A DNA stretch of 20,918 bases, from positions 1 to 20,918 of IMG/VR virus record IMGVR_UViG_3300036792_000129. One strand, written 5' to 3'. Within the stretch, counting starts at the first letter, position 1. Each line of letters starts with the position of its first letter. The stretch comes from a virus. The notes below the pieces were generated by a model. The model ran no database searches. It saw only the letters and a list, made by a program, of their open reading frames with translations, and was not told the DNA's origin. Positions 2-7,017 of the stretch are shown piece by piece. The position numbers and the translations under genes are program-made.

Positions 2-2995
2 GCGCGGCACCCCGACCTCGGCGCGCACCAGCACATCCGCGACGCGGCAGCGGCACTGGACCGCCGCCAGCCGGAGGCGGCCAACCGCCACCTGACCGCC
101 GCGATCGGCAACATGACACCGCAGTCGCTGCGCCGCCACGGCCTGCTCACCGACGAGCACCACGACTCGGCGAAGCGCTCGATGGACGCGGTCCACCGGC
201 ACATGCTGCTGGTCAAGGACATCACCGACCTGCAGTCGCGCAACGACTCCCTGCCGCGCAACCAGCTGGACGAGCCGCAGTTCCCGAAGGAGCCGGCCGA
301 CGACAACCTGGACGAAAAGCCGACCTCGAAGATGCCCGCCGAGAAGGCCATGAACGCCCCTGGCAGGATGAACGCCGGGCGGCCGGACCCCAACGTGGCC
401 AAGCCGCAGCAGGTCACCGAGTGGAAGGTCACCAAGCAGATCGCGGCGGCCAACAGCAGCGGCGACCTCACCACCGCCATCGAGCTGGTTGGCCCCAAGG
501 GGTGGAGTCACGGCTGGATCAAGGCCGCCGGGCAGGTGCTCAAGGGCGCGGCAGACGAGAAGCTGCCCGGCGAAGAGGACACCGCCGCGAACTACGACAG
601 GCCTGGCAAGACCCAGCACGGCGGCCTCTACGGGCACATGGCGAGCAGCCACCCAGGGGTGCCGCCGTCTCCCACCGCGCACATGGCTGCCCACGCGTCG
701 GGCGCGGCTGCCCACAGCCACCCGGCCAACGTCTACAAGCGGGCCCCTGGCAACAAGATCATCCCCGGCGGTGCCGAGGACTTCGACATCGCAGCGGCCG
801 GGTTCGCGAACGAGCTGGTCCTGTCTGCGCAGACCGGCACTCTCGCCACGGTGCCGCACCCGTTCGGCAAGCCCGGCGGGCCGGGTCTCTGGAATGTAAA
901 GGGGATGCAGTTGCCGCCCTACGTGCAGAACATCGCGCACGCGCTGCTGCGCACCGGCCGGGCCAAGGACGAGAGCGAGGCCATCGCGATGGCCCGCGCC
1001 GCGACCAAGCGCTGGGAGCACGGCAAGAACACCAGGCCCGAGGTGCGCGCCGCGTCCACGGCCTCGGACGCCGACTGGCGGGCCAAGCAGGCACGCGCTC
1101 ACGCGCACGCGAACGACGGTGCCGCGATCACCCTGGCTTTGCATTTCAACCCGATGGAGAAGCGCGACGCCAAAGGGGAGTGGACGCAGGGTGACATCAA
1201 CAAGGCCGCCGACGACATTTACAAGCTCAGCGACAAGATCATGAACCGCGACAGCAGCACGTTCTACAACGACCAGCCGCTGGGCAAGACGCCGCTGCCG
1301 CGCAGCCGCCGTCTCGACTACCAGGGCAAGGAGACGGACCTGCGGACCGGCCTGGCGATGGCGGCGAGCGACATGAAGAAGGGGAACGCGAACCGGGCGG
1401 CGGAGCACCTGAACAGGGTGGCGGACGCCGTTGACGCGATCGGGAACACCGTCCCCGCTGGCAACATCTCGTCGCACGAGGTCAGCCACCTGCGGGAGAC
1501 AGCCGCCAAGCTGCGCACCGCCCGCGTGCCCGACCCCGAGTACGTCAGCGCGATGGAGAGGGGGCAGGGCAACCTGGTCCGCGCTGCCCGGAGCGGAAGC
1601 GGCATGCGTAATGCCGACAAGTACGGGGCCACCAACTGGAACGCTCAGGGATACGCCAACGACGCAGTCGCGACGGTCCGCCGGGCGATTGAACTCGGGC
1701 ACAGCGCCGCGTACCTGACCGAGCGGCGCGGCCGGGGCGGGCAGTGGTCCAGCGGCGCTGACATCCCGTCCTCGGACAAGGCGCTGGTCAAGAAGAACAG
1801 GGCGGCCGAGGCGGCGGCGGCGCGCGGCACGATGAAGGCCGCTCCCGGCTCGAAGGCGCATGCGCAGGAGCTGCGCGGCCTGGCCAGCGAGATGGACTTG
1901 AACGCCGGGCGCAACTACCTCGCGCTGAAGGACAGCAAGGAGGGGCCGCCCAGCGCCGAGGTGGCCAGTCTGAAGGCCGGGACGGACCGGGAGGTCGCCC
2001 CCCAGTCGGACACGTCGCGGGCCCTGCGGCGCGCGGCGACGATGATCGAGCGGGGGCAGCCGTCCATGGCGCGGCTGCACGCCGACACCATCCGCAGCTC
2101 GGCCCCGTCGGAGGCGAAGCTCAACCCAGATCTGCAGGCGCGGCTGAGCGCGGCGGCCGACAAGCTCGCCGCGCTGCCCCGCAGCCAGGGCATGGCGGCG
2201 ATGCCCCCGGCGACCGCCGACTTCCAGGCCAGAACGGCGGCGGCCCGGCGGTACGCGGCGGCGACCGCGTCGCGCGGGTCGATGACCCTCCAGGCGTCCA
2301 ACGACTGGACCTCCGTCGAACGGCAGATCGCCCTGGCGGTCTCGGCGACACCGCGTGTCATCGCGCTGGTCGGCACGGCGGCGGGCGCGGCGCAGGACTC
2401 CCGCGTCCCGGCGGGGCAGCCAGGCGGCGGCACGTTCGGGCAGGGCAGCGGCGGATCCAGCTCCAGCACCACCAAGGCCACGAGCAGCAGCAGCGGCGCG
2501 AAGACGACCAAGAACAGCCAGTCCAAGGCCCCGGCTAAGGGCCCCGCCAAGGCACCGGCTAAGGCCCCGGCTAAGGCCCCGGCCAGCAGGGCACAGAAGA
2601 AGGCAGCGCTGCTCAAGCAGGCGGCCGGGTACCGCACCCAGGCGGACGCGCTGATCAAGCAGCGGGACGCCCTGCGCGCCGCCCTGGCCAGTGCCAGCGG
2701 CAAGACCACCAGCGGCCAGGCCGGGTCCACGACCACCGCCAAGGCCTCGACCACCAAGAGCACGGCTCCCGCGACCGCCGCGACGACCAAGAGCACCGCG
2801 AGTACGAGCACCACGGCGGCCAAGACCACGGCGGCGAGCACGACGACGGCGGCCAAGAAGACGACCACCACGGCGGCGGGCACGGCCAAGGCCACCGCCG
2901 CGCAGATGACCAGTCAGATCGCCCAGCTCAACACGCAGATCGTGGCGCTGCAGAACCAGTACCGCCAGGCTATTGCCCAGGCCGCGAAGCTGTGA
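2..2995 (+). CDS. Multidomain minor head / internal virion protein, 5' end cut by window edge
   Basis: The reading frame is open from the left edge, so the first ATG at 113 is probably not the true start; at least 997 residues are encoded. Visible modules in order: a helical hairpin module (about 32-115); a His/Pro/Gly-rich stretch (about 620-750); a helix-turn-helix-like segment LPPYVQNIAHALLRTG...AIAMARAATKRW (905-1060); a tag EKRDAKGEWTQG (1157-1192) opening a long helical region with two more hairpin modules (1337-1441 and 2021-2165); a second tag-like site RRGRGGQWSSG (about 1724-1756); a linker SRVPAGQPGGGTFG (2399-2440); then a Lys/Ala/Pro/Thr/Ser-rich tail ending in a coiled-coil-like helix. 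Proteins of this kind lie just after portal genes in actinobacterial phages and are often called minor capsid or MuF-like; I see no clear MuF catalytic signature. A role as an internal head or ejected protein is inferred from position and mosaic structure. The next gene starts 6 bp after its stop. Confidence 0.7.
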   Translation, partial: ARHPDLGAHQHIRDAAAALDRRQPEAANRHLTAAIGNMTPQSLRRHGLLTDEHHDSAKRSMDAVHRHMLLVKDITDLQSRNDSLPRNQLDEPQFPKEPADDNLDEKPTSKMPAEKAMNAPGRMNAGRPDPNVAKPQQVTEWKVTKQIAAANSSGDLTTAIELVGPKGWSHGWIKAAGQVLKGAADEKLPGEEDTAANYDRPGKTQHGGLYGHMASSHPGVPPSPTAHMAAHASGAAAHSHPANVYKRAPGNKIIPGGAEDFDIAAAGFANELVLSAQTGTLATVPHPFGKPGGPGLWNVKGMQLPPYVQNIAHALLRTGRAKDESEAIAMARAATKRWEHGKNTRPEVRAASTASDADWRAKQARAHAHANDGAAITLALHFNPMEKRDAKGEWTQGDINKAADDIYKLSDKIMNRDSSTFYNDQPLGKTPLPRSRRLDYQGKETDLRTGLAMAASDMKKGNANRAAEHLNRVADAVDAIGNTVPAGNISSHEVSHLRETAAKLRTARVPDPEYVSAMERGQGNLVRAARSGSGMRNADKYGATNWNAQGYANDAVATVRRAIELGHSAAYLTERRGRGGQWSSGADIPSSDKALVKKNRAAEAAAARGTMKAAPGSKAHAQELRGLASEMDLNAGRNYLALKDSKEGPPSAEVASLKAGTDREVAPQSDTSRALRRAATMIERGQPSMARLHADTIRSSAPSEAKLNPDLQARLSAAADKLAALPRSQGMAAMPPATADFQARTAAARRYAAATASRGSMTLQASNDWTSVERQIALAVSATPRVIALVGTAAGAAQDSRVPAGQPGGGTFGQGSGGSSSSTTKATSSSSGAKTTKNSQSKAPAKGPAKAPAKAPAKAPASRAQKKAALLKQAAGYRTQADALIKQRDALRAALASASGKTTSGQAGSTTTAKASTTKSTAPATAATTKSTASTSTTAAKTTAASTTTAAKKTTTTAAGTAKATAAQMTSQIAQLNTQIVALQNQYRQAIAQAAKL
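2525..2584 (+). repeat. Five 12-bp tandem units encoding K-A/G-P-A
   Basis: Five in-frame tandem units of the form AAG-GCN-CCG-GCN encode KAPAKGPAKAPAKAPAKAPA. One unit has Gly in place of Ala and synonymous changes distinguish some of the others. The segment sits in the basic low-complexity tail and resembles histone H1-like (AKPA) tails that bind DNA without sequence specificity. Confidence 0.85.
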
Positions 2996-3001
2996 GGTGC
3001 G

Positions 3002-5764
3002 ATGCTGGTATCACAGCAGCTCATAGAGCTGGGCTGGCGGTACAACCCGGCTGAGCTGCGCAACGAGCACGGCGAGTGGACCAAGCTCGGCGAGACGGTT
3101 GCCAGCGCGGGCAAGGACTACGAGCACCCCGACCACACCCGGCTGATTAACCAGCGCGGCAAGCCGCCGGACCCGGCCGACCACCCGTTCTTCAAGGCGC
3201 ACCCGGTCAGCCCGGAAAACATCATGGCGTCCTACGACCGTGCCCCGGCGGCCACCCGCCAGCAGGGCATGCGCTGGTACGCCGACGCGCACGTGATCGC
3301 CAAGGCCATCGCTCACGGCGACGCCGACAAGGGCGCAGGCGTCCTGGCGGCGTACAGCCCGCAGACCGGCTGGCCGTCCAACATGATGAACGCGGCACGG
3401 GCCCTGGAGCTGGGCCGCGCGATCGGCCCCGGCGAGGGCATGATCACCGGCTCGATGCAGGCCAACGCGCAGAAGGCAATGGACGGCAAGGCGGCTGACG
3501 TCGCCAACTCCAGCTCGAAGACCAGGGCCTTCGCCCGGCTGATCCGCAACGGCGGCGACATGCCGGACGAGACGCAGGGCGAAGTGGTGGTCGACCGGCA
3601 CGCGATGTCGGTGGCCATGGGCCAGCGGATCACCAAGAAGGAGAACGACGCCTCACCGATCGGCAACGACCGCTTCTACCAGCACGTGGCCGACCAGTAC
3701 CGCGAGGCGGCCAAGCGGATCTCCGAGCGCGACGGCACCCCGATATCACCGCACCAGCTGCAGGCCATCACCTGGCTGCAGCAGCAGGAGGAGAACGAGA
3801 ACGCGGACGCCGGGGTCGGCGGACCGCGCGAGGTCGGCCGCGCCACCATGATGCGCAACGCCTGGCTGCAGTGGGACGCCAAGGCGAAGACGGAGCAGAT
3901 ACCCACGCACGCGGGCACCACCATGCTGGACGCCGTGCCCAACCTGATCTCTCGCCAGGTGATGGAACTCGCCGTCTGGGAGCACGAGCCACGCGACAGC
4001 CGGGGCCGCTGGACTAAGTTCGGCGGGGTGGGCGAGGCCGTCAAGGTGATGGAGAAGGAGCGCGAGGGGTTCTCGGTTTCTCCCCGCACTGGGGAAGCGC
4101 CGGCCAGCGGGTACATGGTCGCGCTGGACGGGCACACGCACCGCTACCCGGCGGAGATCCTGGACGACCCGGCGAAGCTCCACAAGGCGATCGACGACAT
4201 GCTCATGAGCGAGCGCGAGTCGTTCCAGGGCAAGGACATGTACCTGGGCGGGTGGGTCGAAGACGGTAAACTATGGCTGGATCCGTCCCAGAACGTGCAG
4301 AACCGTGCAACGGCCGAGCAGCTGGGCAGGGCACGGGACCAGGTGGGGATCTTCGATCTCAACACCTTCAACACTATCAACACGGGAGGCAGCGGTGGCG
4401 GACGGATCATCGACCACGCCAACCCCGCAGAAGGTGCACGCGGCGGTCCCCGAGAACTACTGGGACCTGCCCGAGGAGGAGCGCCTGGCGGAGGCGGCGA
4501 AGATCGGCGACGCTATCCGATCGGGATTGCAGCGCAGCTCATCGACCTCGGCTGGGACGGCTGGCGGACCGAGCCGCGCGACCTGAAGGGCCGCTGGACG
4601 CGTCTGCCGGGCGAGGCGGTTGCCCGTGACGTGACCAGCGGCGAGGGGTACCCCGGCCAGTTCAACGACCAGATCCTCAGCCTGTGGCGGCACGAGACCA
4701 GCCCGGTCGCCAGGGGTGCGCTGAACCAGGCGAGCGCCGCCTACCAGGGCGGCGACCACAAGACGGCGGCAGCCCTGCTCAGGCAGGCCGGGCACGGCGA
4801 CCTGGCAGCCAAGATTGACAGCGGTGACACGGCCGACAAGAGCAGCCAGGCGGCTGTCCAGAGTCTCATGCACGCCGCTGCCGACTCCGTGCCCGGCATG
4901 TTCGGGCCGGACGAGCACCTGGACTGGGACGGCAAGCCGCCCACGCTGTTCGCCGACGTTACCCAGCCGAAGGTGCTGGCCGAGGTCGGCTGGAACGGGC
5001 ACGTCTCGATCGCGCAGAGCGTGGCCAGTGCCCTGGCCGAGGCGAAAAACGGCGGCTCGATCAGTGACACCAACGCGTTCACGGTGCCGCTGCACGAGAT
5101 GATCCACGCCGTGATCCCGACGGGCCAGCACCGTGCCAGCAACGGGGACAAGAAGGCGTACCAGAACTACGCCAACGCCCAGATCGAGGAAGGGTTCACC
5201 GAGCTGGGCACCGTCCAGCACGCGGCCGAGTTCTTCGACCAGGCCGGGGTCGGGGACCGGCGGGTGCTCGACCAGGGCAGCCTGGCCAGGCAGCAGCACC
5301 TGGCCGCGATTAACGGCCTGCCGTTCAAGCCCGACCTGACCGCCACCAAGACCATGGACGACCTGGCCGCCGAGGTCAACGACCCGGCGCGGATCAGGAA
5401 CGGAAATGTCTGGGGGCACTACAAGGTGCAGACGGCGCAGGCCTACAACTGGGTGTCGACCATCGCCCAGCTGCATACCGGCAAGAGCGAGAGCAGCCAG
5501 GCCACGCAGGACGAAATCCTCCGGCTGTCCGACGACGTGAACGCCGTGGGCACGGCGGCCAAGCCAAGAGTGATGGCCCAGCATGTCATCGCGGACATGG
5601 GACTGAGCGGGGCTACCAGGGAATCCGTGCTCAGCTCCACGGCGCAGACGATACTAGGTGAGTGGGCGTCGGGCGACGTACAGCAGACGGTGGCGCAGGC
5701 CAGGAAGGCGGCACTCCAGAGAGTGCAGGCGCTTCGCGTAGAGGCAGAAAGGGCGGCAGCATGA
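3002..5764 (+). CDS. Mosaic virion-locus protein: HhH-GPD-like and HExxH metallopeptidase-like modules
   Basis: 920 aa in one uninterrupted frame; the ATG follows a GAGGTG ribosome site. Module 1 opens with a QQLIELGW helix and the tag LRNEHGEWTKLG (residues 18-30), then a helical domain with YSPQTGW (118-124), K173 and VVVDRHAMSVA (about 195-205). These resemble the SaQT and VDTHV motifs of HhH-GPD DNA glycosylases, though no GPD hairpin is obvious. Module 2 starts with tag PRDSRGRWTKFGG (about 330-342) and ends near FDLNTFNTINTGGSGG (about 460). Module 3 starts with AQLIDLGWDGW and tag PRDLKGRWTRLPG (about 525-537) and carries HEMIH (698-702) followed by EEGFTE (729-734), a gluzincin-type zinc site pattern. 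The linker at about 465-505 is Gly/Arg/Pro-rich and appears to be an out-of-frame reading of a different gene. Position suggests an internal or minor head protein. Enzyme activities are inferred from motifs only. Confidence 0.7.
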   Translation: MLVSQQLIELGWRYNPAELRNEHGEWTKLGETVASAGKDYEHPDHTRLINQRGKPPDPADHPFFKAHPVSPENIMASYDRAPAATRQQGMRWYADAHVIAKAIAHGDADKGAGVLAAYSPQTGWPSNMMNAARALELGRAIGPGEGMITGSMQANAQKAMDGKAADVANSSSKTRAFARLIRNGGDMPDETQGEVVVDRHAMSVAMGQRITKKENDASPIGNDRFYQHVADQYREAAKRISERDGTPISPHQLQAITWLQQQEENENADAGVGGPREVGRATMMRNAWLQWDAKAKTEQIPTHAGTTMLDAVPNLISRQVMELAVWEHEPRDSRGRWTKFGGVGEAVKVMEKEREGFSVSPRTGEAPASGYMVALDGHTHRYPAEILDDPAKLHKAIDDMLMSERESFQGKDMYLGGWVEDGKLWLDPSQNVQNRATAEQLGRARDQVGIFDLNTFNTINTGGSGGGRIIDHANPAEGARGGPRELLGPARGGAPGGGGEDRRRYPIGIAAQLIDLGWDGWRTEPRDLKGRWTRLPGEAVARDVTSGEGYPGQFNDQILSLWRHETSPVARGALNQASAAYQGGDHKTAAALLRQAGHGDLAAKIDSGDTADKSSQAAVQSLMHAAADSVPGMFGPDEHLDWDGKPPTLFADVTQPKVLAEVGWNGHVSIAQSVASALAEAKNGGSISDTNAFTVPLHEMIHAVIPTGQHRASNGDKKAYQNYANAQIEEGFTELGTVQHAAEFFDQAGVGDRRVLDQGSLARQQHLAAINGLPFKPDLTATKTMDDLAAEVNDPARIRNGNVWGHYKVQTAQAYNWVSTIAQLHTGKSESSQATQDEILRLSDDVNAVGTAAKPRVMAQHVIADMGLSGATRESVLSSTAQTILGEWASGDVQQTVAQARKAALQRVQALRVEAERAAA
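4384..4397 (+). promoter_or_regulatory. Ribosome binding site and GTG for the embedded small ORF
   Basis: GGGAGG lies five bases before a GTG at 4395. This is as good a start signal as those of most genes here, although it lies inside the 920-aa frame. It supports independent initiation of the embedded reading frame. Confidence 0.45.
4395..4586 (+). CDS. Embedded small ORF in +1 frame, probable former or real small gene
   Basis: 63 aa from a GTG with a GGAGG ribosome site. The middle of the product, around VPENYWDLPEEERLAEAAKI, reads like a natural acidic helical protein. The reading of the same DNA in the long surrounding frame is low-complexity Gly/Arg/Pro. Over codons 4428-4511 all 28 third positions in this frame are G or C, against 10 of 28 in the surrounding frame, matching the codon habit of the rest of the window. 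After about 4515 the signal passes back to the surrounding frame. I do not recognise a family. It could be a true overlapping gene, a relic of a three-gene arrangement later fused, or a sign of a base error in the assembly. Confidence 0.5.
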   Translation: MADGSSTTPTPQKVHAAVPENYWDLPEEERLAEAAKIGDAIRSGLQRSSSTSAGTAGGPSRAT

Positions 5765-7017
5765 GCCTGGAGTACACGGCGGCCGGCGCGCAGGCGCGCT
5801 CGATCATGCGCTGGGCCTGGCAGGACCCGCAGGAGCGGGCGGTCGGCGCGCTGGAGCAGGTTCACGAGCTGGCGGCGGCGGCCACCGACCCGCAGGCCCT
5901 GGCGGAGATCCAGGACGCGGGCACCATGCTGTCCCGTCTCGTGTCCTCGGTCAACCCCCCTGCGGCCAGCGAAAACGCGCTAACGGCCCGTCTTTTGTCC
6001 AGTCAGATGTCCGGCCCGGTGACCATCGGCGAGCAGCTGGACCTGGCCGCCATCCACGGCAAGCACATCCCCGGCACGGCGTACACGTTCCGCCACGGCT
6101 GGATCCCGCTGATCGGCCCGCAGCTCAACGACAAGTACCCGAGCTGGATGGGCGCGCAGATCGAGGCCGACAAGAAGGCCAAGAAGGAAGCGGCCAAGGG
6201 CATCAAGGCGCAGCCCAAGCCGTCACCGCAGGCAGCGGGGCCGAGGCACAAGCCCGTCCCGGTGAAGGCCGGTGAACGTGAGCTGAAGCCCGAGCACCAG
6301 GCGCTGATCGCGAGGAACAAAGAGATCCACGCGAGGGCGGAACGGGCTGCCGCGCGGGCACTGCACCCTGCGACGCCCAGGGTTACGCGGGCGTCCAAAC
6401 TTCCGAGCCACGCCGCAGTCGAAGGCGAGACCCTGAAGGGCATCCACGAACCAGTGCATCAGCCGTCGACCGGCGCGGCGGCGGCGTCGGCCGCCGTATT
6501 CCAGGCAAACCCGCAGGCTACCGCCATCACTGAGAAGCGGGTCGACGCGGTAGCCGCCGCTAGGCAGGCTGCCGCGAACCCGCCTGACTTCAAGCCGGGC
6601 ACGGTGGGGCAGAAGCTTGTCCAGGACGACCCGGCCCTGGCCAGCCTGGCGGCACCCGGTGCCAGCATGGCGGCGCTCAAGGCGTATATCGACGCGCGAG
6701 TGGCGGCCGAAGTGGCGCGGCAAGTCGGCCAGATTACCGACGAGCAGAACAGGAATATCCAGGAAAAGCTGGCCGGAATGCACAAGAGCCAGCAAAGACT
6801 GATCCACTTCATGCGCAAGCAGGCGCAGGAAGGCATCGACAACGATAACAAGGTCGACCGCACCCAGCTGGTCATGTACAACCTATTCAACATGGCCGCC
6901 GTCGGCGTAGCTATAGGCGGGATCGCAGCCGGTGTCACCCCGATTGCGGCTGCCATAGCTGCGGGAATCGTCCCGATCGTCAATATCATCCACGACTACG
7001 TCCGGAGAACCGGCTGA
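5761..7017 (+). CDS. Putative internal virion protein with coiled coil and C-terminal membrane segment
   Basis: 418 aa. The ATG at 5761 overlaps the upstream stop (ATGA) and is preceded by a purine-rich AAAGGGCGG; longer readings in frame begin well inside the previous gene. The N-terminal 90 residues are helical and Ala-rich. A segment GTAYTFRHGWIPLIGP (about 105-120) resembles a motif found in other actinophage head proteins. A Lys/Pro-rich linker follows (about 138-180), then Ala-rich sequence, a coiled-coil-like helix (about 300-365, DARVAAEVARQVGQIT then HKSQQRLIHFMRK), and a hydrophobic Ala/Gly/Ile segment (about 377-410) before a short basic end. A soluble head protein would not need such an end. 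Delivery with the DNA and insertion into the host membrane is one inference; the membrane segment could instead pack against the portal. Family not recognised. Confidence 0.65.
   Translation: MSLEYTAAGAQARSIMRWAWQDPQERAVGALEQVHELAAAATDPQALAEIQDAGTMLSRLVSSVNPPAASENALTARLLSSQMSGPVTIGEQLDLAAIHGKHIPGTAYTFRHGWIPLIGPQLNDKYPSWMGAQIEADKKAKKEAAKGIKAQPKPSPQAAGPRHKPVPVKAGERELKPEHQALIARNKEIHARAERAAARALHPATPRVTRASKLPSHAAVEGETLKGIHEPVHQPSTGAAAASAAVFQANPQATAITEKRVDAVAAARQAAANPPDFKPGTVGQKLVQDDPALASLAAPGASMAALKAYIDARVAAEVARQVGQITDEQNRNIQEKLAGMHKSQQRLIHFMRKQAQEGIDNDNKVDRTQLVMYNLFNMAAVGVAIGGIAAGVTPIAAAIAAGIVPIVNIIHDYVRRTG

Follow-up and report, generated by a model that had tools for sequence, protein, structure and literature searches.

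Gene organization

The window analysed here (the whole stretch of DNA, 20.9 kb long and taken from a virus record) very probably holds a conserved same-strand nested gene: a modular protein of 920 aa, encoded in the virion region, appears to be fused straight through a small gene that has itself remained intact. The long gene (3002..5764, + strand) is one open frame with the organization A1-A2-linker-C, fused through gene B (4395..4586, + strand), which encodes 63 aa in the +1 frame from a GTG start to its own stop. As far as sequence comparison can tell, this DNA specifies two distinct proteins, and it does so in a dozen or more related phages.

Module A1 (3002..3949, + strand) comprises an N-terminal tag (SQQLIELGW..RNEHGEW) and a DUF7178 domain (PF23802, E=1.8e-39; phrog_3842). 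Module A2 (3950..4394, + strand) consists of a tag of its own (VMELAVWEHEPRDSRGRW) and of the A2 domain, ending ..INTGGS (phrog_17808, E=2e-6). It is followed in the long frame by a linker (4394..4522, + strand; GGGRIIDHANPAEGARGG..GGGGEDRRRYPI), of which the first ~8 residues are constrained and the remainder relaxed, then by the tag of module C (4523..4597, + strand; GIAAQLIDLGWDGWRTEPRDLKGRW), which shares its first two thirds with the end of gene B, and finally by module C (4598..5761, + strand), which is metallopeptidase-like and carries a HEMIH motif. A Pfam search with module C gave nothing above the cut-off. This module has a stand-alone homologue in record L002 (5387-6433, 59% identity by tblastn), where the HEMIH metallopeptidase-like module forms a separate tagged gene (5189-6433, ~59% identical to C of the window).

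Gene B begins with GTG at 4395-4397, runs over 63 codons and terminates at 4584-4586, inside the tag of module C. An ORF in its frame could mechanically begin at 4305; the conserved start is the one at 4395. The Shine-Dalgarno sequence of gene B, GGAGG (4385..4389, + strand), is separated from the start codon by a 5-nt spacer and is kept in the window and in all 13 other close records. Read in the long frame, it is part of the Gly-rich codons for TGGSGGG, a flexible linker.

An earlier note on this DNA had pointed to this GTG, with GGAGG five bases upstream, and to a coding signature of the GTG frame inside the 920-aa gene. Both were recovered here: between 4428 and 4511, G or C occupied 28/28 third codon positions in the GTG frame against 10/28 in the 920-aa frame. 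Among 5,087 segments of 28 codons taken along the main gene frames of the window, only three displayed 28/28 G/C thirds in another frame, all of them here (4421-4427), and five had an own-frame GC3 count of at most 11. The restart of C, which the note had likened to the N-terminus of the same protein, does resemble it (IAAQLIDLGW..PRDLKGRW versus SQQLIELGW..LRNEHGEW), both being copies of a recurring tag.

Distribution of the arrangement among relatives

Queries of IMG/VR with the long protein, with A2 and with the B peptide yielded a close set of 13 records besides the window, of which about 11 are distinct (L001, L003, L004, L005, L017, L018, which equals L019, L020, L022, L026/L027, L028 and L034); L034 was the only relative added by a 40-locus DNA-pattern scan. 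All 13 displayed A2, then GGAGG-N5-GTG, then a +1-frame B of 46-63 aa with its own stop, and in all 13 the long frame was open through B into a further module. With the window included, GGAGG-N5-GTG was thus invariant (14/14 records). The B homologues, found at the same place, were 33-87% identical to B of the window, and indels within B were multiples of three. B is under selection for its protein sequence.

Since the +1 product, its start, its Shine-Dalgarno sequence and the open long frame recur in 13 other records, a base error is excluded and the observation is confirmed as real at the sequence level. The earlier note had left a choice between dual coding, fusion and base error: the first two hold and the third falls, the same layout being present in 13 records. 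Likewise, the relatives support its suggestion of three genes in the order A-B-C, A and C now sharing one frame that overlaps B.

One A2 and one B occurred side by side in 13/13 records, and L002 has neither. The module after B was variable, being metallopeptidase-like, transmembrane-like or MuF, and among the more distant relatives L103 displayed no C at all. In L099, a MuF head-protein domain (PF04233, E=1e-9) follows B in the A2 frame. No relative of B was found in collections of cultured phages or of plasmids. A scan of genome contigs with a B profile gave only two short matches, L069 and L070, which were taken as chance.

Constraint in the two frames

Substitutions were counted over pairs of related sequences, and the counts are non-independent. 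In the middle of the overlap, per-site rates in the close set were 0.098 for differences synonymous in B and nonsynonymous in the long frame, versus 0.048 for differences nonsynonymous in B and synonymous in the long frame. Per site, B-silent differences outnumbered the opposite class about twofold, so that constraint in mid-overlap is carried by B, with the long frame relaxed there. In the first codons of the overlap, no difference that was synonymous in B and nonsynonymous in the long frame occurred in the close set, and the long frame retained GGGRIIDH.

At the end of the overlap, the long frame encodes the first half of the C tag (GIAAQxIELGW). B-silent rates were overall not low there, so that evidence of constraint at this edge consists of the tag and of rare codons. 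The latter are retained in B at positions where the long frame depends on them. Codon TCA (6% of Ser) was retained under a conserved Ile of the long frame, and GGA TTG (7% of Gly and 2.4% of Leu, respectively) were retained in most records under GIA of the tag; L005 and L020, whose long frame is without GIAAQ at this place, displayed the preferred codons GGC CTG and GCC CTG instead. The Gly/Arg stretch, which the earlier note had regarded as junk-like, is indeed mostly unconstrained in its middle; yet it is a genuine linker, open in all close records, with about 8 constrained residues at its start and the C tag at its end.

We propose that ribosomes translating A1-A2 would continue in the long frame, read the DNA of B as a Gly/Arg/Pro-rich linker and fuse A2 to C, and that separate ribosomes would initiate at GTG 4395 via GGAGG and make the 63-aa B, terminating inside the tag of C. 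Both edges of the overlap hold sequence conserved in the two frames, B being the constrained product between them. Two products would in this manner be expressed from 4395-4586.

Start relocation and possible origin of the fusion

Three more distant relatives (L093, L094 and L103) have lost the old GTG. Their B starts at an upstream TTG, preceded by GGAGG-N8 in L094 and L103, and its body is conserved (B profile, E 1e-12 to 1e-9). That the start moves while the protein stays argues for separate initiation, not frameshifting. The alternative frame thus displayed both a conserved protein and an initiation signal of its own, either GGAGG-N5-GTG or the relocated TTG.

The end of A differed widely among distant relatives. 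In L100-L102, the stop of A comes immediately behind the A2 domain. At that place L100 and L102 have the start of an unrelated gene, in the same GGAGG-N5-GTG layout, and these genes, which gave no B match despite that layout, are not counted as B. A ends 17 codons into B in L097, inside B in L103 and just after B in L093, and extends ~40 further residues past B in L094-L096. In L098 and L099, A runs into further modules, with the B profile matching at the expected place (E 0.002 and 0.001, respectively). Remnants of the tag persist in L093 (GIAGQAIRVDL) and L094 (GITEQAARIDL), and their stops may for this reason be secondary, following loss of C.

The distribution of these ends (after A2, inside B or after B, or a run on into C) suggests stop-codon loss as the route to fusion. 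Most likely, the end of an ancestral A2 overlapped the start of a downstream gene B, and A2 then lost its stop codon and ran through the +1 frame of B into the following tagged module. In the A2 tree, which does not settle the number of fusion origins or the order of events, long branches meet and a single clade of fusion was not rejected (p-AU 0.08).

Alternative readings

It could be argued that B alone is genuinely made, that high GC3 keeps the long frame open across it by accident, and that A2 and C act as separate proteins, which we consider unlikely. When a phage is rich in GC, a frame that has its first codon positions at the third positions of another gene is open almost for free, so that an open frame alone is weak evidence; synonymous resamplings of B left the long frame open by chance in 28-68% of cases. 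The poor conservation of the mid-linker in the long frame and the occurrence of C as a gene standing alone in L002 also agree with such an accident. Yet there is not one stop codon in the long frame from 3002 to 5762, and ribosomes on A2, which has no stop, must therefore go on through the DNA of B. C, for its part, has no in-frame start ahead of its tag: ATG, GTG and TTG are all absent there from the close records (the first in the window is at 4631, after the tag), and in these records tagged C is consequently obtainable only fused to A2. Resampling predicted 0.4-1.2 stops per sequence where 0 were observed, and zero stops across 11 records corresponds to a naive joint P of about 2e-4, the relatives being non-independent. 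Even in L098, at 47% GC, the long frame stays stop-free through B (2.9 expected, P=0.033). Moreover, the long frame is conserved where the overlap starts and encodes the C tag where it ends, and the differing C modules, including MuF in L099, all sit in the frame of A2.

A double programmed frameshift, entering B by a +1 shift and leaving it for C by a -1 shift, would yield a single A2-B-C protein and would account for a B-frame sequence lying exactly between A2 and C. GGAGG can stimulate frameshifting, as in prfB, and the one present here is a possible stimulator. Such shifting is nevertheless very unlikely, as B has its own stop in every record, the conserved GGAGG-N5-GTG is spaced for initiation, B is kept where its start moves to the upstream TTG (L093/L094/L103), and the long frame reaches C without any shift. 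The aligned codons showed no conserved slippery run at either edge of the overlap, and with independent start, Shine-Dalgarno sequence and stop all conserved, programmed frameshifting was rejected. Two compensating indels, whether base errors or a recent pair of frameshifts, could have misframed part of an ordinary long protein and left a patch of 45 codons whose coding signature belongs to another frame. This is hardly conceivable when many metagenomes display the same patch in the same frame, with conserved start, Shine-Dalgarno sequence and stop and with internal indels in multiples of three, and the relatives rule it out. A further proposal accepts B as a protein and makes it an immunity or antidote protein for module C or for another effector in the long protein. 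This small helical protein does adjoin predicted effectors, namely zeta-toxin (L026), an ADP-ribosyltransferase-like module (L004, below cut-off) and HEMIH (window); yet it stays with A2 as C changes from metallopeptidase-like to transmembrane-like, to MuF or to none (L103). The A2-B pair being constant and co-occurrence with a given C not being observed, an antidote of C was rejected and is decidedly unlikely.

Modules and possible roles

The predicted model of the B product combines an extended N-terminal part with a single helix at 27-51 (mean pLDDT 73.5). B had no match in Pfam or PHROGs (best E 0.065 and 0.46, respectively). Because B follows A2 one-to-one while C changes, and because a helix is predicted in it, we think that it may serve the A2-bearing virion protein as a small helical partner, either accessory or in assembly.

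The A2 domain shares homology (37.8% identity, E~1e-12) with part of the internal virion proteins of Synechococcus phages P60 and Syn5. Its AlphaFold model had a mean pLDDT of 86.9, and a fold search against PDB gave no match at E<=0.001. The top PDB matches, to eIF4E, reached a TM of only about 0.3 and were not believed, nor was the single sequence match to a solved structure (E=0.22).

Genes downstream of the long gene have matches in phage families of scaffold, major head, head-tail connector and tape-measure proteins, a content that places the window in the head-gene region of a tailed phage. The long proteins resemble polyvalent proteins: they carry at least two distinct domains (DUF7178, A2 and C in the window, zeta-toxin in L026, MuF in L099) and are encoded together with tailed-phage virion genes, upstream of those for scaffold, major head, connector and tape measure. 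The long protein might be packaged or injected, as hinted by the presence of A2 in cyanophage internal virion proteins and alongside MuF in L099. The zeta-toxin domain in the long A2-bearing protein of L026 (2236-7551) and the ADP-ribosyltransferase-like modules, below the Pfam cut-off, in that of L004 (3379-7593) were observed as well, suggesting effectors that would act on the bacterial host.

A tag of ~25 aa, xxQxIELGW..R[DGN]xxG[RE]W, begins every module of these head-region proteins, with up to five copies per protein, and is possibly a packaging or processing signal. It was recorded in the window (113-2995 and 3002-5764), in L004 (3379-7593) and in L034.

Comparison with known systems

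Gene E of phiX174 lies within gene D as an internal same-strand overlap (PMC8227390). Like B, it codes for a small protein, has its own start and is contained entirely in another gene, read in a shifted frame. The overlap of B differs in that it falls in the linker that joins two modules of a fused protein, and relatives suggest that B is a neighbour overrun by stop-loss fusion, not a new gene born inside an old one. Unidirectional overlaps in prokaryotes arise by 3' elongation after stop-codon loss (PMC3887535), and effects of GC content and phase on prokaryotic gene overlaps have been described (PMC2542354). Here too, the upstream gene extends into the downstream one in another frame; those overlaps are terminal, whereas the present extension crosses the downstream gene from end to end and joins a third module, an arrangement conserved across divergent phages.

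Phage polyvalent proteins are large multi-domain proteins, encoded among tailed-phage virion genes, with enzymatic or effector modules and links to MuF (PMC5512222). The proteins described here are distinguished by a ~25-aa tag on each module and by the nested gene; the word 'overlapping' is absent from the text of that paper (PMC5512222). The internal virion proteins of P60 and Syn5 likewise have the A2 domain in mid-protein. B was looked for in their loci and not found, and no tags were seen in Syn5 gp45. Nested genes and terminal stop-loss overlaps are thus already known, and fusion through an intact gene to a third module is unusual: a limited literature search found no precedent for such a conserved fusion through an entire gene.

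The series of relatives suggests that nested genes need not come from overprinting: read-through fusion can make one out of a neighbouring gene. We tentatively put forward 'leapfrog fusion', possible but somewhat doubtful as a general route in high-GC phages, in which stop loss would fuse a gene to the gene after next, the alternative frame of the intervening gene would serve as linker and that gene would stay intact and essential. If true, multi-module virion proteins could generally arise in this way in high-GC phages, where the alternative frame is nearly stop-free, and nested genes could appear without de novo gene birth. B offers a nested gene whose origin can be traced, through the positions at which A ends in relatives. 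Gene callers that forbid nested overlaps would miss this deeply conserved gene. The finding also flags a family of tagged, modular virion-region proteins.

Further observations

A diverged A2-like domain was found at the C-terminus of a Bixzunavirus protein, Mycobacterium phage Ngannou gp102 (L072, 1607-2908). A 70-aa gene follows it and overlaps its stop by one base, with no resemblance to B seen. A second flavour of the tag, QLDL..HIPGTP[YF]..HGW, is present in the gene following the long gene in the window (about 6020-6110) and at the start of the C module in L026/L027. The upstream protein of the window, 960 aa long, has a long Ser/Thr/Ala/Lys-rich low-complexity C-terminal tail (2470-2900), preceded by the motif SRVPAGQPGGGTFG.
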